IMG/VR virus record: IMGVR_UViG_3300020395_000055
Location: 1 to 31,934 of that record
From: a virus
DNA length: 31,934 bases
Strand: one strand, 5' to 3'
In this document: positions 3,683-24,060 of the stretch, one piece after another
How the letters are laid out: every line of letters starts with the position of its first letter
How positions within the stretch are numbered: position 1 is the stretch's first letter
Translations under genes and position numbers: made by a program
The notes under the pieces: generated by a model
What the model was told of the DNA's origin: nothing
What the model saw: the letters and a program-made list of their open reading frames with translations, nothing else
Database searches by the model: none

Positions 3683-5026
3683 TTACCAACCTGATTGGAA
3701 GAATGATTGTAGTCTAAGTTGTCCTCCTAGGACAGGAGCTGCGATTGCACCACCAAAACTAATAGACACATCACTTATGTTATTAGTAGATAGAAGAGTT
3801 GCGTCTGCATCAGGGAACTGAATGTTTCGAGCACCCGTGATGTTCGTCATCTCAAACGTAATGATTCCATTAACGTCATTAGGGTTATTTATCTTAGCAT
3901 ATTCTAGGGTTTTATTGTATAGAGTCTGAGTTTTTCTCTCTGATACTAAGATATTTGTGGCGTTATTTGAATTAAGAGGTGCAGCAGGGTCGTTATCTGG
4001 GAAACCAAAGTCATATGTCTGGTTATCTTCAATATTTGATAGATCGAATCTAATCTTTCTACCCAATCCTTCTGCTGGATCAGTATCACAAAATACTGCT
4101 CCTTTGTAAACTTTATTCGTAATAGTTTGAGAGGAATCTTCTCCCACCACTGTGATATTTAGGTCTGGCCATACCACACTTCTATCCTGAGTGATTTGTG
4201 ATTGATCAAACAGTATGTAATTAGTAGGTGTGTTAGGGTCATTACTTGGTGTATTCGAGAATGTGGGGTTAACCATATTCTTGTTGAATAGATTCTGCTC
4301 AGTAATATCGTCAATCAATGTTGATTGAGTCTGTGCAGCACCAAAGTCAGGTAATTTGTAAGTATGGTCGCCTGGTGATTCCCATGCGTCAACCTCAAAT
4401 TTAGCAATCTTAGAAGTATCCGTAGAACCTGTAATCTGAAGCTCTGCGTCCTTAATAAGAAGCGTCTTGTTAGTTATAGTCTGGAATGTGTCATTTGCTA
4501 CCAATGTGGTGCTTGAAGCAGTTCCAACATTTGGTAAATCAAAACGACGTGTACCTGACTGTGTACTAATAGTATCTACATTGAAGTGTGCCCTCTTACC
4601 TGTGTTTTGGTCACCTTCAAGATAGAATTGCACGTCTGTCTGGATAATAGGTCCAGCAACTGTAAAGAATCCACTTCCTTGAGGTTGAAGCTCAATCGAA
4701 GAAGATGCTGATGCAGTATCTATTGCTTTTACGAGGAGAGTTGAAGATCCATCCGTGTTAGCTCTCCTACTATTATACAGTGCAGCAGTACCAAAAGTAA
4801 GTCCAATCTCATCGACTGCACTCTGGTACATGCCTGAATCTCGGTCGAGGTCGAAAGCTAATCCTGGTGCAGTCTGTGATCCAGCACTCACACCACGGAA
4901 AAGTTGATTAACCTTTGATTTCCTGTTGGGTATAAGAGGATCTGAGATAACAATAGGAAGAATAGCTTCACCAGTGACCAATGCATCTGCAATCGTTTCT
5001 AACTGGGATATTCTTTTAGTTGCCAC
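3683..5026 (-). CDS. Tail-fibre-like virion structural protein with about five imperfect repeats, 447 aa
   Basis: This 447-residue structural protein begins MATKRISQLETI. Its centre and C-terminal half are built from about five imperfect units of some 50-70 residues. Each has an [IR]xF[ED]-type strand, an R-x-[FI]-x-[LF]P[DN] segment, a TL[VIL] turn and a QT[IL][TY]NK[TV][LY] motif (for example FQTITNKTLLIKDA, SQTITNKVYKGAV, TQTLYNKTLEYAK). Such units are common in phage tail fibres, where they trimerise along a shaft. It is the first gene after the terminator at 5069-5095 and has an exact TATAAATA late element 28 bases upstream of its ATG, so it heads the late fibre operon with the two genes downstream. 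No receptor-binding tip is obvious. Confidence 0.75.
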   Translation of the reverse strand: MATKRISQLETIADALVTGEAILPIVISDPLIPNRKSKVNQLFRGVSAGSQTAPGLAFDLDRDSGMYQSAVDEIGLTFGTAALYNSRRANTDGSSTLLVKAIDTASASSSIELQPQGSGFFTVAGPIIQTDVQFYLEGDQNTGKRAHFNVDTISTQSGTRRFDLPNVGTASSTTLVANDTFQTITNKTLLIKDAELQITGSTDTSKIAKFEVDAWESPGDHTYKLPDFGAAQTQSTLIDDITEQNLFNKNMVNPTFSNTPSNDPNTPTNYILFDQSQITQDRSVVWPDLNITVVGEDSSQTITNKVYKGAVFCDTDPAEGLGRKIRFDLSNIEDNQTYDFGFPDNDPAAPLNSNNATNILVSERKTQTLYNKTLEYAKINNPNDVNGIITFEMTNITGARNIQFPDADATLLSTNNISDVSISFGGAIAAPVLGGQLRLQSFFQSGW

Positions 5027-5053
5027 TAGAATTCAGTACAATTCTTACAGTTT

Positions 5054-5061
5054 TATTTATA
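5054..5061 (-). promoter_or_regulatory. T4-type late promoter (TATAAATA)
   Basis: The minus strand reads CGTATAAATAAAAC, an exact match to the T4 late consensus TATAAATA, 28 bases upstream of the ATG of the fibre gene that starts at 5026. It lies just downstream of an intrinsic terminator, so it would restart transcription for the fibre genes. In T4, such elements are read by the gp55 sigma factor with gp33 as coactivator; a gp33 homologue is present in this window. Confidence 0.75.
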
Positions 5062-5068
5062 CGGGTAC

Positions 5069-5095
5069 AAAAAAAGAGAGGGCATAAATGCCCCC
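5069..5095 (-). terminator. Intrinsic terminator ending the talC-region operon
   Basis: On the minus strand GGGCA-TTTA-TGCCC forms a five-pair GC-rich stem with a four-base loop (5080-5093). It is followed by TCTC and a run of seven T (5075-5069). It lies downstream of the 52-residue gene ending at 5134 and upstream of the late promoter for the fibre operon, so it separates the two transcription units. Confidence 0.75.
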
Positions 5096-5133
5096 TTGTA
5101 CTATAACGTTGTGATTGGAAAAGATGAAAACAC

Positions 5134-5292
5134 TTATTCTAGCAACTTACTACACTGTCTTTCTGCTTGTCGGTCACCTGAATTCTCGATTATACAACTA
5201 TAGTATTCTGATTCTTTAGTTGGACTTCCAGGTGTCTGCTCTTCTAAGTGCTTCCACTCAGCTAACTGGTTATACGCTACAAGGTTATGCAT
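5134..5292 (-). CDS. Small conserved-type hypothetical protein, 52 aa
   Basis: I place the start at the ATG at 5292 because a strong ribosome binding site, GGAGG, lies 6 bases upstream. An in-frame GTG at 5367 would add 25 residues, but it sits only 2 bases after a TATAAATA late promoter, leaving no room for a leader. The 52-residue product (MHNLVAYNQLAEWKHLEEQ...) is hydrophilic and probably helical, with two Cys in the C-terminal half (YSCII and RQCSKLLE). There is no signal peptide or membrane segment. It is the last gene before the terminator. I do not recognise a family and propose no function. Confidence 0.7.
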   Translation of the reverse strand: MHNLVAYNQLAEWKHLEEQTPGSPTKESEYYSCIIENSGDRQAERQCSKLLE

Positions 5293-5367
5293 TTGTGTCC
5301 TCCAGGGTGTGCTACATGATAATTTTGGGTTTTCAGTGCATCTTGGTTTTTCCTCTCTTTCTGTCAC

Positions 5368-5375
5368 TATTTATA
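5368..5375 (-). promoter_or_regulatory. T4-type late promoter (TATAAATA) before the 52-aa gene
   Basis: The minus strand reads CTTATAAATAGTGAC, an exact late consensus, about 76 bases upstream of the ATG at 5292. It would allow late expression of this small gene independently of the sigma70-type promoter at the head of the region. Confidence 0.65.
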
Positions 5376-5419
5376 AGTCAAATGTGCTGAAATGACTACA
5401 TTTTAAGAAAAATAAATGC

Positions 5420-5668
5420 CTACGAGTTTATACCTAGAAACATTACATCAGGTGGTGCTGTCATTGGTTTCCTTGGTGCTGGTGCTTCAATTAGAATACC
5501 AAACCTATCGAGTCTATCAATACACTCCTCGACTGCTTCGGCCATTCGTTTGAATCCATTGCCAACGAAAATCTGTCCTGCAAAGACTGATACAGTGGCT
5601 GCACCCCAAAAGATGTAATACCACCTACTCTTTACTTGGTGTCTCTGTTTTTTCTTGCTCATCATCAT
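5420..5668 (-). CDS. Small single-span membrane protein, 82 aa
   Basis: The protein opens MMMSKKKQRHQVKSR, a strongly basic N-terminus, then a hydrophobic segment of about 20 residues (WYYIFWGAATVSVFAGQIFV, residues 16-35), then an acidic amphipathic helix and a Pro-rich tail (EAPAPRKPMTAPPD). The positive-inside rule suggests the N-terminus stays in the cytoplasm. Three consecutive ATG codons leave the start uncertain by up to six bases. It overlaps the end of the upstream 54-residue gene by 44 bases and runs toward the terminator. It could act at the host cytoplasmic or thylakoid membrane, but nothing in the sequence gives a specific function. Confidence 0.75.
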   Translation of the reverse strand: MMMSKKKQRHQVKSRWYYIFWGAATVSVFAGQIFVGNGFKRMAEAVEECIDRLDRFGILIEAPAPRKPMTAPPDVMFLGINS

Positions 5669-5789
5669 CTTTAATCTTCCCGACTATTCTATCATAATCT
5701 GACGCACTGTCAAGTATTGACTGTTTTAATTCTTCCAGACTCCATTGGTCTGCGATTTCTTCTTCTGGCCTTGGGTTTGAATCTGTCAT
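5625..5789 (-). CDS. Small acidic hypothetical protein, 54 aa
   Basis: This frame begins at the ATG at 5789, which overlaps the stop of the upstream cupin gene in an ATGA junction, and ends at TAG 5625. The predicted product (MTDSNPRPEEEIADQWSLEE...) is 54 residues, strongly acidic, Lys/Glu-rich at the C-terminus and probably helical. It fills what would otherwise be a gap of about 120 bases between two genes. The ATGA coupling and lack of other explanation support it as a real gene. No family is recognised. Confidence 0.65.
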   Translation of the reverse strand: MTDSNPRPEEEIADQWSLEELKQSILDSASDYDRIVGKIKDDDEQEKTETPSKE

Positions 5790-6259
5790 GAAAAACTTAA
5801 TGTGATACGTGGACCATGAACTATAGGGTCGTGGTACTCACCTTCTGGTATAAAAACTGCATCACCAGGACGTAGTTTTATAATCGCATCATCAAATCTA
5901 TATGTAACCTTACCCATTGCTTGAACGATTAAGACATCCATTGTGTCATTGTGTCTACCAAATGTGGATGTCTTCTTTGACATGGAGACATAAGTATGAA
6001 ACTCAGTCATTCCCCAATCCTTTTGCACCTTCTGACATACTGGTAGAAATGTATTAGGTACATATGATGACTCACATACTATGGTAGGGATTTCACCCCT
6101 AACCACCATCAACTTATCTTTAGTGTGTAGTGTGTAATTCTCATCATTATGTCTAATGCATATAAACTTATCCTCTTGCACATCAGCATCTATCTTCAGC
6201 ATGGCATCTTGCCATGTGATTTTACCTACCTCTGGTGCATATCCTTGGATAACTCTCAT
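5786..6259 (-). CDS. Cupin/JmjC-like Fe(II) dioxygenase-fold protein, 157 aa
   Basis: The C-terminal half is a cupin-type double-stranded beta-helix: GRHNDTMDVLIVQAMGK (residues 101-117), then LRPGDAVFIPEGEYHD (129-144) and GPRITLSF. His103-x-Asp105 with distal His143 forms the facial triad expected of cupin_8/JmjC 2-oxoglutarate oxygenases, and the PGDxxxIPxGxxH turn is characteristic. At 157 residues it is short for that family, so it may be a minimal domain. It overlaps talC upstream and the 54-residue gene downstream by ATGA junctions, so it is cotranscribed with talC. Substrate is unknown. A non-catalytic sugar- or metabolite-binding cupin is the main alternative. Confidence 0.7.
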   Translation of the reverse strand: MRVIQGYAPEVGKITWQDAMLKIDADVQEDKFICIRHNDENYTLHTKDKLMVVRGEIPTIVCESSYVPNTFLPVCQKVQKDWGMTEFHTYVSMSKKTSTFGRHNDTMDVLIVQAMGKVTYRFDDAIIKLRPGDAVFIPEGEYHDPIVHGPRITLSFS

Positions 6260-6939
6260 AATGCATCTAAATCACCACCATGTTTACCTATAGTAGCTTG
6301 TGCTTCTGCCCAATCTCTATCAAAAATGTCTAACCCTTTGTCTGTAAGGACGTGGCTATACATCTGGTCAAATACTTTGACAGGTATAGTGCATATCTGA
6401 GCACCATTATACCAACATCTTACTGCACGGTTGACCTCACGAATTGATGCTGCCAATACATGTGTAGTGAAATGTCCTTGTGCTCTATAAACATCTACGA
6501 TTGATCGGACAACCTCCAACCCAGCAATGCTATTGTCGTCCAACCTCCCAACAAAAGGACTGACGTAAGTAGCACCTGCCTTTGCAGATAGGATAGCTTG
6601 AGCAGCATTAAAGATAAGCGTAACATTTACTCGGATTCCCTCTGATGATAAAATTTTACATGCTGCGAGTCCACCTCGTGTGCATGGTACTTTAATTGTA
6701 GCGATGTCTTTGTATTTGTCAAAGAGTCGTCTACCTTCTGTAACCATCTCATCACCTGTGCCAACAACTTCCATACTAATGTCATGGAGACCCATACGGG
6801 CTAAGTCAGAGTATACATCCTCTGGTTGTCTTCCACTCTTAAGAATGAGGCTAGGGTTGGTGGTTACTCCATCCACTAAACCTGTCTTGAAGCATTTTTC
6901 GATTGCTCCAACATCTGCACTATCAATAAAAATTTTCAT
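6256..6939 (-). CDS. talC: Transaldolase, short fructose-6-phosphate-aldolase-like type (TalC)
   Basis: The protein is 227 residues and collinear with the small TalC/FSA transaldolases: MKIFIDSADVGAIEK (Asp6), DGVTTNPSL (residues 23-31, Asn28), TIKVPCTRGG (81-90) with the Schiff-base lysine at Lys83, VNVTLIFNAAQA, and VSPFVGRLDD. These are the catalytic loops of class I aldolases. Transaldolase moves a dihydroxyacetone unit between sugar phosphates in the pentose phosphate pathway. In cyanophages talC is a well-known auxiliary metabolic gene thought to push host carbon flow from the Calvin cycle toward NADPH and ribose for nucleotide synthesis. It is coupled by ATGA to the cupin gene and preceded by an overlapping 56-residue gene. 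The cp12 gene in the same window would act in the same direction. Confidence 0.95.
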   Translation of the reverse strand: MKIFIDSADVGAIEKCFKTGLVDGVTTNPSLILKSGRQPEDVYSDLARMGLHDISMEVVGTGDEMVTEGRRLFDKYKDIATIKVPCTRGGLAACKILSSEGIRVNVTLIFNAAQAILSAKAGATYVSPFVGRLDDNSIAGLEVVRSIVDVYRAQGHFTTHVLAASIREVNRAVRCWYNGAQICTIPVKVFDQMYSHVLTDKGLDIFDRDWAEAQATIGKHGGDLDAL

Positions 6940-7106
6940 GGATCAAATGGTCTGTAGGTTAATCTTTCCCAGATTCCTCTGGCACTAAGGTTATGCTCAC
7001 ATAATTTATGAGCCCATATTCTATCTTCTAAACTGACATCCCTATTAAGACGAGTCTGACACGCAATAATAGAGAGTCTCAGTCTATAGTCCCTACTCAA
7101 GGACAT
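6936..7106 (-). CDS. Small hypothetical protein, 56 aa, upstream of talC
   Basis: An ATG at 7106, overlapping the end of the 67-residue gene by 14 bases, opens a 56-codon frame ending at TGA 6936-6938, which overlaps the talC start in an ATGA junction. The product (MSLSRDYRLRLSIIAC...) is basic, with a likely helix, and ends RGIWERLTYRPFDP. The tight coupling at both ends and the absence of any other gene in this 150-base interval support it. No family is recognised. It contains two Cys and has no membrane segment or signal peptide. Confidence 0.7.
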   Translation of the reverse strand: MSLSRDYRLRLSIIACQTRLNRDVSLEDRIWAHKLCEHNLSARGIWERLTYRPFDP

Positions 7107-7296
7107 CTCGTTCTCTTACCCCATCTAGTGTATCCAAAATTGGTACTATTGAGATAATATTATCAATTTGTGACAACATATCTGCAATATGTTTTGATAT
7201 GTAAGGTTTTTCAGTTCTTGCACTAAATGATAACGCATTGCGTAAATCCTCTTGTGCTTCAATTAAACTTTCTTCTACTTGTTTACTTAGTGCCAT
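7093..7296 (-). CDS. Small helical hypothetical protein, 67 aa
   Basis: A longer frame reaches back to 7407. I choose the ATG at 7296, which overlaps the end of the upstream gene by only 14 bases and gives a compact protein (MALSKQVEESLIEAQEDLRN...). The 67 residues look almost wholly helical, with heptad-like spacing of Leu and Ile (ADMLSQIDNIISIVPILDTL). They could form a small coiled coil or helical bundle. It sits in a run of small genes leading to talC. No catalytic motif or known family is apparent. Confidence 0.7.
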   Translation of the reverse strand: MALSKQVEESLIEAQEDLRNALSFSARTEKPYISKHIADMLSQIDNIISIVPILDTLDGVRERDVLE

Positions 7297-7450
7297 CTTT
7301 AGTGTCCTCATGTAATTGCTGCGTTGCTTGTCGTTGAATGAAAGCACGTAGCTCAGGTGTCTCCTCCCACTCCCATAGTTGGTTGTGTTGTGGATTCTTT
7401 TTCTCAATCAAGTGAGTCTTCTTCACGTTTTCACTGCTCCGTAATTTCAT
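7283..7450 (-). CDS. Small hypothetical protein, 55 aa
   Basis: The start is set at the ATG at 7450, which overlaps the stop codon of the upstream oxygenase in an ATGA junction. An in-frame ATG five codons earlier is also possible. The product (MKLRSSENVKKTHLIEKKNP...) is hydrophilic and charged, with NQLWEWEETPELRAFI in the middle, and ends DTKDGTK. Its end overlaps the start of the 67-residue gene. Context suggests translational coupling with the oxygenase. The function is unknown. Confidence 0.6.
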   Translation of the reverse strand: MKLRSSENVKKTHLIEKKNPQHNQLWEWEETPELRAFIQRQATQQLHEDTKDGTK

Positions 7451-7989
7451 TGTGTTCGTATCCAAAGATTACAGGAGAAAGTCTTACGAATGGTTTCATT
7501 CCTATTAGGTGTTACACCATGCAACATATGTGCAGGGAAAAATATAATATCTCCCTTCTTGACCTTCATATACTGTCTATCTGGTTGTCTCCAGATAGTT
7601 CCAAGATTTGCATTCCTATTATGGAAATAGAAATGGTCATCATTTTGGAGAAAGAATACTGATGCTATGTCAGCATCCTTATGGTCATGTATCTCTTGGA
7701 ATCCTCCCTTTTTATATAGATTCATCCAAGGGTCGCATAAACTATACTCGATATTATCTATACCTATCTTATCACTAATGTCTTTACTTAGCAACTGAAG
7801 TGAGGGAGTCAAGAAATTATACCATTTCTCCCACTCTAATCTAATGACATCAACATCACAGTCCCTAACCCAAGGGAAGTCTGAGTTTGATATCATCCAT
7901 GTACCACAACCATCAAGTCGCTCCATAAACTCATCTGCATTAGGAGCTGTGTAGTGAAAATAATAATGGTCAGGAAATATAATCTCCAT
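7447..7989 (-). CDS. 2-oxoglutarate/Fe(II)-dependent oxygenase family protein, 180 aa
   Basis: A double-stranded beta-helix oxygenase pattern is visible in the second half: GFQEIHDHKDADIASVFFL (residues 96-114) with His101/His103 and Asp105, then KKGDIIFFPAHMLHGVTPN (144-162) with distal His157, and NETIRKTFSCNLWI with Arg168 placed to bind the 2-oxoglutarate carboxylate. This order (iron ligands, FPxxxxH turn, terminal Arg) is the signature of small phage 2OG-Fe(II) oxygenases that are frequent in cyanophages. Substrate is not known; protein, lipid or nucleic-acid hydroxylation are all possible. It starts at the TAATG junction with the Phd-like gene, so both are in one operon. Confidence 0.85.
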   Translation of the reverse strand: MEIIFPDHYYFHYTAPNADEFMERLDGCGTWMISNSDFPWVRDCDVDVIRLEWEKWYNFLTPSLQLLSKDISDKIGIDNIEYSLCDPWMNLYKKGGFQEIHDHKDADIASVFFLQNDDHFYFHNRNANLGTIWRQPDRQYMKVKKGDIIFFPAHMLHGVTPNRNETIRKTFSCNLWIRTQ

Positions 7990-8237
7990 TAAAAGTCATT
8001 CGTCATGTCACCTAATGCTTCATCAACAAACTGACGAGTCCCAACAGGGTCAGGTACAAACTCCTCTGGAGTTGGTATCTTAACTTCACCCTCTGGTAAC
8101 TGTGTTGCTACTGGTGATACCAATAAGACCTTACCATTATCAGTTGTTACTTTAAGTGTGTGTCCTTTTTCTGCCAAAGTAAAAGCGAAGTCTACATTTG
8201 ATGCAAACTCCGCATGTGATAGTGAAATAATATTCAT
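7989..8237 (-). CDS. Small protein resembling Phd/YefM antitoxins, 82 aa
   Basis: The first 45 residues (MNIISLSHAEFASNVDFAF, then LAEKGHTLKVTTDNGKVLLV) follow the Phd/YefM antitoxin pattern: a short beta strand, an xxEFxxN helix, an EKG turn, then a beta hairpin with a GK turn ending in a hydrophobic LLVSP strand. The C-terminal 35 residues are acidic and Pro-rich, ending in an amphipathic helix, as in the toxin-binding tails of such antitoxins. No toxin gene is apparent next to it: the neighbours are a 66-residue acidic protein and an oxygenase. It could be an orphan antitoxin against host toxins, a DNA-binding autoregulator, or a structural look-alike. The resemblance is by eye only. Confidence 0.55.
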   Translation of the reverse strand: MNIISLSHAEFASNVDFAFTLAEKGHTLKVTTDNGKVLLVSPVATQLPEGEVKIPTPEEFVPDPVGTRQFVDEALGDMTNDF

Positions 8238-8434
8238 CTTCCAGGTAAATAAGTAATCATATCATCAGGAATAAATTCCCGAAAGTGTGCCACTGTCTCG
8301 GTGAAACCCTCTGCACCTTCATCGTCAAATTTCCAGGTTATAATTTCATCATAACCCTCGTCGTCCATAATCTTGACCTGTCTCTTTGGGATATCCACCC
8401 AGACATGCTCAAGATAGGTGTCGTCATCAATCAT
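8234..8434 (-). CDS. Small acidic hypothetical protein, 66 aa
   Basis: This is the first gene after the strong sigma70-type promoter overlapping the end of gp5. The product (MIDDDTYLEHVWVDIPKRQV...) is 66 residues, acidic and beta-rich in its first half (VWVDIPKRQVKIMDDEGYDE), then helical. It ends on YLPGR. Its stop overlaps the start of the Phd-like gene in an ATGA junction, so the two are translationally coupled. No clear ribosome binding site lies immediately upstream. No family is recognised; a small regulatory or host-takeover protein is possible given its position, but this is inference. Confidence 0.75.
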   Translation of the reverse strand: MIDDDTYLEHVWVDIPKRQVKIMDDEGYDEIITWKFDDEGAEGFTETVAHFREFIPDDMITYLPGR

Positions 8435-8460
8435 AGATACAGAGGTTTCACTACCTCCGT

Positions 8461-8489
8461 ATTATACACTAGTTCAGCAGTAATGGCAA
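8461..8489 (-). promoter_or_regulatory. Strong sigma70-type promoter for the talC region (TTGCCA-17-TATAAT)
   Basis: The minus strand carries TTGCCA (8489-8484), a 17-base spacer and a perfect TATAAT (8466-8461). The -35 lies in the last codons of gp5 and the -10 straddles the gap after its stop. Expected initiation is near 8454, about 20 bases before the ATG at 8434. This is near the host consensus, so the unmodified host polymerase should read it early in infection, in contrast to the late elements before the structural genes. Confidence 0.75.
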
Positions 8490-11192
8490 GCCATAGACCT
8501 GATGGGGTCCGAAACCACACCCAGTTGCCATGTAACCTGCTGCCACTGAGTAGGATGAAAGTCCTGTCACCACTTGGTTTACGATGCTTCCCTGAGGGAC
8601 AAACTCACCGATAACACCAGTAGGTGCAGCAATAAATTCTGCGTGTGCTCCTGCTGTGGATCCTGCAATGATATCCACCTGTGATGCAGGTACCATAGTA
8701 CCAATAGCAATCCTAACATGAGATGGTGGTGCTACTGATGGGAATGGTAGGTCACATGTAATATCAATGATACTACCCTTAACAATAGTAAACTGTCCAG
8801 TTAATGCAGCGAATGGATTGAAGAGTCCAATAAACTCAAATCTACCTGCATTTAGGAATGATGTAATCCAGTTGGCCTGGTTGACTATCTCACCGTCAGC
8901 GATGTTTTCAATAGTATTACCCTCAATCTTAACGTTTTGAGAGTTAATCATTAGTGATTCAATAGCAGCGATACTAACCTTAGCACCCTGTATCTTAACC
9001 TCACCAGTGTATGCTATATCATGGTCACCTTCCTTTCTCTGAGCAGACTTCTGCTCTTTATCATCCTTCAACTCTGCTGATAACTGAGGACCTGTTGGTG
9101 TCCTACCCATGAAATCAGCACCAGGTGCGAATGGAATATCTTCTACTGGATAGAAACCACCCAAGTTATTCAACCTGAGTAACTCAGTCCTATCAATATC
9201 TCTTTGGTGACGATACATATCAGCGGATCCAGTGTCATCAGATGATGCTCCACCACTTAGTGATGATGCGTCAGCAACTACTGTATATCCACCAGTATTC
9301 TCTCCAGTTACATTAGTATCTACGTCAGAAGTAGCTCCACCTGTAGTATCAAGGTTAGGTGATTCAGTGCTACCACTAGACTCTGACTGAGGTCCTTGTG
9401 AGCTATGCTCATTCTTAGCACCTGTCACTTCTTCATGGATATTACCCATGACTTTAATATAGAAGTCACCTTCTACTGTCAATGCATAGTTACCTTTAAT
9501 AGTCTGTGCTAAATCCTTAGCAATAATAGCAGTCCTATTATTAGGTACATTCTCGTGTATATTACCAAATCCATCTTCAAATGTACTTACACCACCAGGT
9601 CCTGAGACAATTCTCTTCTCTTTACCTGGAGTTGCATCATTAATAATCTTAGCACCGTTAAGGAATGTCTGTGCATGCATCAAGTAAGGATTAATATTCT
9701 CAAACATCCTATCGATGAATGATCCTTTACCTGTATCAGCAGCACTACCATCATATAGATGATCTATATTCTGGTAAGGAGTACCCACTAACGCATCGTG
9801 GATATTATCGCATTCCGTGGTACCTATTAGCGGATACCACGCTTTCGACTTCGGTCGTTTTATCTTCCTATTACACGACTTCTTAAAGAGTAGACCAAGG
9901 ATAGCAATAAGAATCTGAATGAGACTACCCCAGTTGAGAGAGGTAAAATCAAATTCAAAAATCATCTTAACTGTTTCACCCAGTTTCCTCGCTGCTGCTG
10001 CCATACCTTTAGCAGCATTAACCGCAGCAATAACATCACCAGCAACGTCTCTTACACGATTCATTGCAGCAGTGATACCACCAAGGATACGATTTGTAAC
10101 ACCCTTAACAGCAGAGTCAAGACCTGCTAATGCTTCAGTCACCTTGTTCATTGCAAGGCTCGCCATTTGGTTAGCGAAGTTCGCAGTGTCACTCAGGGCT
10201 GCTTGCACCAGTCCAAACCACATGGGTGTATCCATACAGAAGATCTTAAAGATCTGCTCAAGGAATTTCATCACAGTAGTGATGACAACGATAGGTACAA
10301 ACTGAGATATAATCTTGACTAGCATACCCACAATCTCTGCAATGAGTTTTGCTAGTAATTCTTTTAGTGGTGCCAAGATACCTGCGATACCACCAGAAAG
10401 GAAGTTAGTAATCCTACCTAGATGTTGTTGTACCTTATCACCTGCAATCTTATTACCTGTTACCACAGATATAAAACCACCTGGACTAGATGCCAACGTC
10501 GCTGTCATTTCTCCCAGCTCAGTAAGCATTCTCTCTAAGTCAGTTGCGAATCCATTACCTGCTGGACCAGCAACACCATCAGCAATACCCTCTGCAATAA
10601 CAGGTGGTTTGATAGGGTTAGTAACTACGTTACCTGGTAATGTTTTCTCTCCTACACTGATAGCACCCCGTGCTTCTTCTGTCGCTCCCGTCTCTGAACC
10701 AGGTGTGCTTGATTGATCCTTAACAAATGAGTTACCACTCATGTTAAGTTTATTCTGCATGTCCTGTTGGAAAGGAGTGTTTGTCTTATTTAATTCTGCA
10801 TTCTCACCATCTGCAATAGTGGTGCGTTTCGCATCATCCTCCTTATACTGCATTCCTCTGAATGCACCTAGCACACAAGGTAACTGTGCCTCTTCACCAT
10901 CTAGGAAGAAACCTATAACCCATGCACCACACTGTAATTCTGAAGTAGAACCCGTTCCTTTAGTCTGTGCTTTATCACATGGAAGCAGAACAGTTGCCCA
11001 AGGTAAAATCTCACTGGGTAAATCTGTTAAGTATGCTTGCTTCTCTTTATGTCCAGTATACCAACCAAGAATACGAACACGTACACGACCAAGTTGGAGA
11101 GGGTCGTTGATGTTTTCAACTTCTCCTACCCACCAAGTGTACCCATCTTTTCCTAAGTAATCAGTCCTTGCAGGACCTTGTACAGAACTCAT
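8469..11192 (-). CDS. 5: Baseplate central hub, gp5-like (OB fold, no lysozyme domain), 907 aa
   Basis: Residues 15-115 look like the gp5/VgrG OB fold (YTWWVGEVENINDPLQLGRV, then VRVRILGWYTGH, SEILPWATVLLPC, CGAWVIGFFLDG and VLGAFRG). A long stretch of about 260 residues (roughly 205-460) is hydrophobic and Ala/Gly/Ile-rich. It includes near-membrane-like segments such as LLAKLIAEIVGMLVKIISQF. The next part (NYALTVEGDFYIKVMGNIHEEV, in fragments) and the C-terminus resemble the triple-stranded beta-helix of the cell-puncturing needle. No T4-type lysozyme domain is visible between OB fold and needle. It follows gp27 and the cp12-cpeT cassette, as gp27 and gp5 form the hub in T4. Gene number is by homology to T4. 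Confidence 0.85.
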   Translation of the reverse strand: MSSVQGPARTDYLGKDGYTWWVGEVENINDPLQLGRVRVRILGWYTGHKEKQAYLTDLPSEILPWATVLLPCDKAQTKGTGSTSELQCGAWVIGFFLDGEEAQLPCVLGAFRGMQYKEDDAKRTTIADGENAELNKTNTPFQQDMQNKLNMSGNSFVKDQSSTPGSETGATEEARGAISVGEKTLPGNVVTNPIKPPVIAEGIADGVAGPAGNGFATDLERMLTELGEMTATLASSPGGFISVVTGNKIAGDKVQQHLGRITNFLSGGIAGILAPLKELLAKLIAEIVGMLVKIISQFVPIVVITTVMKFLEQIFKIFCMDTPMWFGLVQAALSDTANFANQMASLAMNKVTEALAGLDSAVKGVTNRILGGITAAMNRVRDVAGDVIAAVNAAKGMAAAARKLGETVKMIFEFDFTSLNWGSLIQILIAILGLLFKKSCNRKIKRPKSKAWYPLIGTTECDNIHDALVGTPYQNIDHLYDGSAADTGKGSFIDRMFENINPYLMHAQTFLNGAKIINDATPGKEKRIVSGPGGVSTFEDGFGNIHENVPNNRTAIIAKDLAQTIKGNYALTVEGDFYIKVMGNIHEEVTGAKNEHSSQGPQSESSGSTESPNLDTTGGATSDVDTNVTGENTGGYTVVADASSLSGGASSDDTGSADMYRHQRDIDRTELLRLNNLGGFYPVEDIPFAPGADFMGRTPTGPQLSAELKDDKEQKSAQRKEGDHDIAYTGEVKIQGAKVSIAAIESLMINSQNVKIEGNTIENIADGEIVNQANWITSFLNAGRFEFIGLFNPFAALTGQFTIVKGSIIDITCDLPFPSVAPPSHVRIAIGTMVPASQVDIIAGSTAGAHAEFIAAPTGVIGEFVPQGSIVNQVVTGLSSYSVAAGYMATGCGFGPHQVYGLPLLLN

Positions 11193-11672: not shown

Positions 11673-11862
11673 TCCACTCTTTAAATGACGATGAGCAATC
11701 AGGGGGTTCAGGATCTTTGATACCCTTGATTCTTTTCCATTTATTATGTAGGGCTTGTAGCACCCAACTCTGAGATAGACTCTTTGGACCATTCTCCAAG
11801 AGGTCTAACTCATATTTGTTGGATGTGTATCCCTTGTATTCTTCTCTCCAATCAGTCGTCAT
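11602..11862 (-). CDS. Small hypothetical protein between cp12 and cpeT, 86 aa
   Basis: The ATG at 11862 overlaps the end of cp12 by 11 bases. The product (MTTDWREEYKGYTSNKYELD...) is 86 residues, acidic and mixed helical, with a central Pro-Cys turn (KDPEPPDCSSSFKEWNDNV) and a Ser/Glu-rich tail. The last 23 codons lie over the first codons of cpeT in another frame, an unusually long overlap for this genome. It has no motif I can name. Its place between two photosynthesis-related genes suggests coexpression with them, nothing more. Confidence 0.7.
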   Translation of the reverse strand: MTTDWREEYKGYTSNKYELDLLENGPKSLSQSWVLQALHNKWKRIKGIKDPEPPDCSSSFKEWNDNVRNTYEGSLSESETGILESE

Positions 11863-12070
11863 ACATTAAACATTCAGGTTCATCAGGATTCATTTCGCAG
11901 AATAGTTCAATACAATTTGGGTCGTGATGATCCTCAGGATGATGGTCATGAAAAACTTCTAATTCATGTAGCTCCTGTTTAGTGTGGCGACGTGCTTGCG
12001 GTGAGGTCTCAGGATTTTCAAGGATTGCCTTGTCTGCTGAGATGTGATCCTCTATGGTTGCGAATGCCAT
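11852..12070 (-). CDS. cp12: CP12-like Calvin cycle regulator, 72 aa
   Basis: The C-terminus is diagnostic of CP12: IELFCEMNPDEPECLMYDD (residues 54-72) has the C-x8-C loop (Cys58, Cys67) with an ENPD-like core and the acidic YDD end that docks into GAPDH. The N-terminal 50 residues (IEDHISADKAILENPETSPQ, then a charged helix and HHPEDHHDP) replace the usual AWDxVEE motif and lack the N-terminal cysteine pair, as in short cyanobacterial forms. CP12 ties GAPDH and phosphoribulokinase into an inactive complex in darkness. Phage CP12 is thought to shut off carbon fixation during infection so that carbon flows to the pentose phosphate pathway, together with talC. An additional Cys53 next to the motif is unusual. 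It lies between gp27 and gp5 with its own promoter elements. Confidence 0.9.
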   Translation of the reverse strand: MAFATIEDHISADKAILENPETSPQARRHTKQELHELEVFHDHHPEDHHDPNCIELFCEMNPDEPECLMYDD

Positions 12071-12092
12071 AACTTATTTGATCGTGTATAGT

Positions 12093-12106
12093 TATTTATT
12101 ATAGCA
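12093..12106 (-). promoter_or_regulatory. Overlapping extended -10 and late-type elements before cp12
   Basis: The minus strand reads TTGCTATAATAAATAACT. TGCTATAAT (12106-12098) is an extended -10 of the sigma70 type, which needs no strong -35; none is obvious. AATAAATA (12100-12093) resembles the late element. Both lie in the 47-base gap after gp27 and 23-36 bases before the cp12 ATG at 12070. The overlap could let cp12 and cpeT be read both early and late. Confidence 0.5.
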
Positions 12107-23999: not shown

Positions 24000-24036
24000 G
24001 TATTTTTACTTAGCGACCCCTACAGACAAAAAAATA

Positions 24037-24060
24037 CCCCCGATTTTTTCGGGGGTTTTG
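24037..24060. terminator. Bidirectional intrinsic terminator between gp53 and the gp32 operon
   Basis: CCCCCGA-TTTTT-TCGGGGG (24037-24055) forms a seven-pair stem. It is followed on the plus strand by TTTTG. On the minus strand it is followed by a T run, the complement of the A tract at 24028-24034. It lies between two converging units (gp53 on plus, the histidine-rich gene on minus), so it probably stops both. Confidence 0.85.

Follow-up and report, generated by a model that had tools for sequence, protein, structure and literature searches.

The stretch of DNA analysed here is a 31,934-bp genome fragment of a T4-like cyanophage (IMG/VR record IMGVR_UViG_3300020395_000055, positions 1 to 31,934; hereafter the window), and this study is concerned with the slot of variable genes lying between its baseplate gene gp5 and the next virion gene, and with the putative promoters found at either end of that slot. 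All of these genes lie on the minus strand. Downstream of the gp5-like baseplate hub/tail lysozyme gene (8469-11192; phrog_694), which forms the late flank on one side, come a fixed first gene encoding DUF7294 (8234-8434; PF23966, phrog_662), the usual second gene, for a Phd-like antitoxin family protein (7989-8237; phrog_31964, and weakly phrog_375), a 2OG-Fe(II) oxygenase gene (7447-7989; PF13759), three small open reading frames (ORFs; 7283-7450, phrog_558; 7093-7296, phrog_1179; 6936-7106, phrog_19028/507), the transaldolase gene talC (6256-6939; PF00923, phrog_440), a gene for a cupin/JmjC-like protein (5786-6259; PF08007, phrog_4992) and two further small ORFs, one recognized from the ORF list and a codon comparison (5625-5789) and one without an assigned function (5420-5668; phrog_2000). 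The TAL_FSA domain of TalC is near full length (PF00923, E 2e-51, residues 3-213 of 227). The phrog_665 gene (5134-5292, 52 aa), the virion structural protein gene phrog_692 (3683-5026), which is the late flank on the other side, and a tail fibre gene complete the order. An initial annotation of this sequence described eleven coupled small genes including talC. A same-strand array containing talC is indeed present, but overlaps of 1-44 nucleotides (nt) link only ten of its genes, from DUF7294 to the phrog_2000 gene, and the eleventh, phrog_665, lies about 130 nt past the end of the tenth without any overlap.

The nearest relatives of the virion genes in the window are those of P-TIM40, S-SZBM1, P-RSM6 and S-WAM1, all members of the Kyanoviridae. 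Within the same collection, one contig is near-identical across 7.3 kb, with proteins that are 96-100% identical (L002), and another has 62-96% identity in the shared genes and a nearly unchanged gene order (L003); a DNA-level search matched just two phage records, with only a 386-bp match. Relatives were gathered by means of DUF7294, the downstream virion protein (phrog_692) and TalC, together with named phages, and the slot counts given below refer to 64 non-redundant slots with both ends present, from which near-copies had been removed. Variable genes are found directly after gp5 and before the next virion gene in the window and in 14 named DUF7294-bearing relatives, and the length of the slot ranges from 737 to 5,564 bp, with a median of 2,508. 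No tRNA genes were found in the 31.9-kb window, and several relatives have tRNA genes among their cargo. A search against Rfam returned no families across the whole window, nor in six relatives.

At the head of the slot lies a sequence resembling a sigma-70-type promoter (P1, 8461-8489, minus strand), composed of a -35 element TTGCCA (8489-8484), a 17-nt spacer and a -10 element TATAAT (8466-8461). As the initial annotation had noted, it overlaps the end of gp5: it scores 11/12, spans the gp5 stop at 8469 and has its -35 within the last codons of that gene. At a score of at least 9/12, P1 is found ahead of DUF7294 in 55 of the 64 slots. Among 53 non-redundant DUF7294 upstream regions, 46 reach at least 9/12, as against 5.4% of shuffled sequences, and 39 reach at least 10/12, as against 1.2%, while the control starts (phd, cupin, vsp692, fibre and gp5) have zero or one upstream region each at that higher threshold. 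Ten of the 14 named phages carry it at 9/12 or better, with perfect 12/12 matches in Syn9 and Syn10, and P-TIM40 also carries it. Judged by these comparisons, the predicted promoter is present far beyond chance. The window as a whole has four promoter sites of at least 11/12, where 1.1 ± 1.1 are expected, and three of the four are on the coding strand of the slot and inside it. An 11/12 match within talC (6722-6695) was set aside, as it is not retained in the 11 relatives compared.

Could P1 be an accident of conserved gp5 codons, with the cargo being expressed late by read-through from gp5? The -35 is, after all, coding sequence, and gp5 and the slot are not separated by a terminator. In the group to which the window belongs, this -35 coincides with the codons TTG-CCA (Leu-Pro) in a conserved gp5 ending, and the pair is present in 28 of 37 non-redundant gp5 ends, against a background usage of 0.158 x 0.412. 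The synonymous codons are fixed only where a -10 follows: TTGCCA and a -10 just past the gp5 stop occur together in 28 of the 37 ends, neither occurs in seven, the -10 stands alone in two, and TTGCCA is never found alone (Fisher p 3e-6, with shared ancestry ignored). This covariation is not explained by the coding constraint on the gp5 protein. Moreover, some other relatives hold TTGACA-17-TATACT or TATAAT within a wider non-coding gap instead. We consider an accidental origin of P1 to be extremely unlikely.

A separate issue is which genes P1 serves. The initial annotation had tied this promoter to metabolic cargo, a link that is not borne out in relatives, as P1 is present in all 25 talC-bearing slots and also in 30 of the 39 slots that lack talC; P1 therefore belongs to the fixed head genes, DUF7294 and the Phd-like gene. 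One explanation would take this further and have P1 serve the pair alone, as an early host-takeover or toxin-antitoxin-type module, leaving the metabolic cargo as a passenger that relies mainly on late promoters or on promoters of its own. Along with the talC-less slots, the match of the second gene to the Phd-like antitoxin family (E 9e-6), the same annotation in 8 of the 14 named relatives, and the promoter of at least 10/12 found at 14 of 63 non-redundant talC upstream regions would all fit such a module. Yet the genes of the window from DUF7294 through phrog_2000 overlap head to tail, P1 is kept wherever talC is present, and DUF7294, a domain of unknown function in Pfam, has no toxin-like match. 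The single terminator-like stem among the first genes, located inside the Phd-like gene (8213-8185), was rejected as a conserved feature, having a counterpart in just 5 of 51 non-redundant copies, that of the window included. On balance, we think it unlikely that P1 serves the pair alone.

Our analysis also points to a second promoter inside the unit, which was absent from the initial annotation. This element (P2, 5686-5713, minus strand), with the sequence TTGACA-16-TAGAAT and an extended -10, lies within the small ORF at 5625-5789 and precedes the phrog_2000 gene. It scores 11/12 in the window and at least 10/12 in 24 of 24 non-redundant upstream regions. The codons that make up its boxes are similarly constrained in a set of 40 ORFs obtained after weaker de-duplication: GAC for Asp in 40 of 40 ORFs (29% background), ATA in 39 (34% background for Ile) and AGA in 38 (51% background). 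As predicted from these patterns, P2 is a conserved promoter.

The initial annotation regarded the unit as insulated and self-contained, and this is the part of its proposal that is not supported on either side. On the side of gp5, a terminator-like structure (a stem with a T-tract) between the gp5 end and DUF7294 was found in just 1 of 67 relatives, and therefore late gp5 transcripts can enter the slot. T4-type late elements had also been assigned to both flanks. For the downstream virion gene this is exact, but in the window gp5 has no NATAAATA directly upstream, only CTAAATA; 29 of 55 non-redundant relatives have NATAAATA ahead of gp5, and the raw count of this motif in the window shows no enrichment (11 against 8.6 ± 2.4).

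Straddling the predicted start of P1 is an inverted repeat with a 10-bp stem (8437-8462, minus strand), detected by folding and weak in a looser control, which we treat as a candidate read-through hairpin or operator. Single-sequence folding places a stem just after the P1 -10 at z <= -2 in 20 of 45 leaders, and seven control gene starts give such folds in 0-2 of 24-63 sequences each. A looser hairpin count separates the two less well (30 of 50 leaders against 109 of 326 coding controls). RNAalifold applied to 18 hand-picked stem-bearing leaders of the 45 returned no consensus pairs, perhaps because loop lengths vary, and a single-strand fold of 8456-8420, a segment cut within the stem, gave nothing (z 0.26). 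The stem has no T-tract, and although its sequence varies among relatives, some stem is kept in about half of them. Note here that its 5' arm starts upstream of the likely P1 start, so that the complete stem would exist only in read-through RNA, or as DNA. Given the looser test and the alignment-based null, the stem at the P1 start serves as a lead only.

On the far side of the slot, the downstream virion gene is preceded by its late promoter TATAAATA (5054-5061, minus strand), which stands 32-37 nt before the gene in all 64 slots and is also present in all 14 named phages. A further TATAAATA, recovered by the motif scan at 5368-5375 (minus strand), precedes phrog_665, and a stem followed by a T-tract (5077-5096, minus strand; -12.5 kcal/mol, z -2.8) forms the intrinsic terminator that the initial annotation had correctly placed before the fibre genes. 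That annotation took these signals to mean an operon that ends at a terminator of its own and whose last gene has gained an extra late promoter at 5368, and the order promoter, genes, terminator and late promoter does hold in this genome. In relatives, however, the terminator in its forward orientation is found in three of four slots with phrog_665 oriented as in the window, in 3 of 17 slots with phrog_665 reversed and in 1 of 43 slots without phrog_665, whereas a terminator facing the opposite way is found in 13 of the 17 reversed slots. The terminator is thus not a feature of the slot and travels with the phrog_665 cassette. Since phrog_665 stands apart from the tenth gene and has a late promoter of its own (5375-5368), it is not a member of the early unit, and the supposed addition is better described as a separate late gene. 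With the gp5 side open as well, and with the last gene, its leader and the terminator reversed as a block in relatives, the insulated operon appears very unlikely. What recurs of the proposed bracket in related phages is P1 and the late promoter of the virion gene.

The reversal of this cassette was examined further. Phrog_665 is reversed in 17 of the 21 non-redundant slots that carry it. When the window (5470-5015) is aligned to seven relatives with the reversed gene (L094, L099, L104, L166, L007, L091 and L110; window 5440-5077), the alignment scores 146-218 in reversed orientation and 44-78 in the same orientation, and promoter, leader and gene run together, mostly with the region after the gene also. 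Given this block-wise reversed alignment, promoter, leader, phrog_665 and terminator are best read as one two-way cassette. A tree of the virion protein included 27 entries with the cassette reversed, 6 with it forward and 15 of the 61 that lack it; this tree needs two changes of cassette orientation, of which the starred branches force only one. A site-specific invertible element was considered and rejected, as the window has no inverted repeats at the cassette ends: none of at least 10 nt was found in 4950-5560, and no search for an invertase was made. The absence of flanking inverted repeats in the window means that nothing points to an active switch. Phrog_665 occurs in 192 named cyanophage records, and its position varies in six that were fetched: for example, in Syn33 it comes after gp23 with an HNH gene in between, in Syn10 after a gp23-like gene, in P-TIM40 after psbA, and in ACG-2014d near gp32.

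The leader of phrog_665 contains a two-codon upstream ORF, ATG-CAC-TGA, with its own Shine-Dalgarno sequence (5333-5341, minus strand); the 77-aa GTG frame listed for this gene takes in the leader. Among 64 phrog_665 leaders, a set from which close copies had been removed, 60 have a Shine-Dalgarno sequence and then an ATG, which in most cases lies 40-56 nt ahead of the main start. The resulting frames are of two codons in 31 leaders, where the chance expectation for a two-codon frame is about 7%, of one codon in 8 and longer in 21, such that one- or two-codon frames account for 39 of the 64. Start and stop are kept while the second codon varies (AAG 14, CAC 6, AGT 3, ATC 3, ACC 2, AAT 2 and ATG 1). 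For the phrog_665 leader of the window, folding is no stronger than in shuffled sequences.

Taken as a whole, we consider it likely that the region from gp5 to phrog_692 is a fixed-place cargo slot of the Kyanoviridae, transcribed early from P1 and followed by a late TATAAATA. The part of the initial annotation that this retains is the early operon itself, as an early-type promoter heads the array, is conserved, and stands among late genes. Because this host-type promoter in the gp5 end is conserved in most of the relatives examined, the cargo genes probably switch on early. The layout of the slot, the conservation of P1, P2 and the late promoter, and the turning round of the cassette in relatives are shown by the sequences; we infer that P1 is active, that its timing is early or middle, and that talC is made from it. 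Activity and timing are drawn from two sources, and "early" here means early or middle. In P-HM2, whose gene order at gp5 differs from that of the window, talC and other metabolic genes are reported in the middle expression cluster and not in the late one (PMC5082946). Cyanomyoviruses are also described as lacking the alt/mod and motA/asiA functions of T4, and the unmodified host polymerase is consequently thought to drive their early genes (PMC2984593).

Several points weigh against early transcription from P1. The same P-HM2 cluster is the middle one and not the early one (PMC5082946). By raw count, promoter-like matches are no commoner in the window than in shuffles, with 38 against 45.9 ± 6.7 in the first half and 35 against 42.7 ± 6.2 in the second half, and therefore the case for P1 rests on conservation. 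P1 is also missing from its usual place in 9 of the 64 slots. In a group without P1 that includes S-SZBM1, P-RSM6 and S-WAM1 (L083, L084, L085, L229, L231 and L238), the gp5 stop lies against the start of DUF7294 or overlaps it. In five of seven non-redundant exceptions, TTGAC(A/T)-17-TACAAT is found about 255 nt downstream, inside the second gene, and is a candidate for a promoter that has moved. In ACG-2014d (L243), P1 is missed when the annotated start codon of DUF7294 is used. Related environmental copies of this gene place TTGCTA-TATACT and a start codon further downstream, and the annotated start of ACG-2014d looks to be too far upstream.

If the slot is indeed transcribed early, host RNA polymerase with its primary sigma factor would start at P1 soon after DNA entry, giving a transcript of DUF7294, the Phd-like gene and then whatever follows, which here is the 2OG oxygenase, talC, the cupin gene and the small ORFs, and P2 would raise the output of the last small gene. 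A gp55-type polymerase would later take the virion gene from TATAAATA at 5061, and would also express phrog_665 from TATAAATA at 5375, with phrog_665 forming a separate promoter-leader-gene-terminator cassette at the far edge of the slot. A more ambitious version of this proposal, which we offer tentatively and regard as possible rather than probable, is that the slot acts as a dock for expression. The final codons of a baseplate gene would double as a host-type -35, any gene landing behind the DUF7294/Phd pair would become early, the stem at the start site would stop late gp5 read-through from being translated, and a reorientable late cassette would have its phrog_665 yield set by a conserved decoy start in the leader, in many cases opening an ORF of one or two codons.

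How does this arrangement compare with what has been described before? A gene hot-spot "near gp5 with tRNAs" is known in cyanomyoviruses (Sullivan et al. 2010, PMC3037559). It is in the same place and has flexible genes, and a location near gp5 is one of several that the paper records for talC and cp12. However, the window has no tRNA, and the passages drawn from that paper describe no head promoter, tail late promoter or reversing cassette (PMC3037559). A cargo hot-spot near gp5 in Kyanoviridae is thus already known, and what our study adds is the fixed promoter architecture and the reorienting cassette. Promoter-early-stem-loop (PeSL) cassettes of T4-type phages (PMC4503421, PMC3950731) are another point of comparison. 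In these, an early promoter adjoins a stem-loop that borders exchangeable genes (PMC4503421), and the ORFanage of S-PM2 is reported to be headed by an early promoter of host-like type (PMC4503421, PMC3950731). They differ in that the promoter of the window lies partly in gp5 codons and the P1 stem has no T-tract. The regulation of psbA in cyanomyoviruses likewise combines, for a metabolic gene, sigma-70 -35 and -10 elements with a gp55 late site, but both are on one gene there, while in the window P1 is assigned to the cargo and the late site to the next virion gene (PMC5931967). Two-codon leader ORFs are reported to tune downstream genes in other systems, and axe-txe similarly has a two-codon minigene ahead of a small gene, within its leader; in that system the influence of the minigene on the main gene has been measured, whereas the phrog_665 ORF is known from sequence alone (PMC8708949). 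Within literature passages that left most subscription papers, including the Syn9 transcriptome, outside their scope, no description of a promoter conserved at the head of the slot was found.

Metabolic genes carried by phages of Prochlorococcus and Synechococcus redirect the flow of carbon during infection. A promoter conserved in most relatives at a fixed docking point would provide a simple, testable answer to the question of how newly acquired genes gain the right timing amid late virion genes, in which timing is a property of the slot and not of the gene. Given that P1 is present in Syn9 and P-TIM40, whose infections have already been profiled, existing data could check P1 (PMC7238727).

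Two further observations concern the rest of the window. At 11852-12100 lies a gene for a phrog_627 protein whose C-terminus resembles CP12 by eye, with CP12 annotated nearby in relatives. It has AATAAATA 22-23 nt before its start and lies upstream of a cpeT-like gene and gp5; it may be another gene of carbon metabolism, placed on gp5's late side. A strong symmetrical stem-loop (ACCCCCGA...TCGGGGGT) at 24036-24056, with T-tracts on both strands, is likely a bidirectional terminator between convergent genes.

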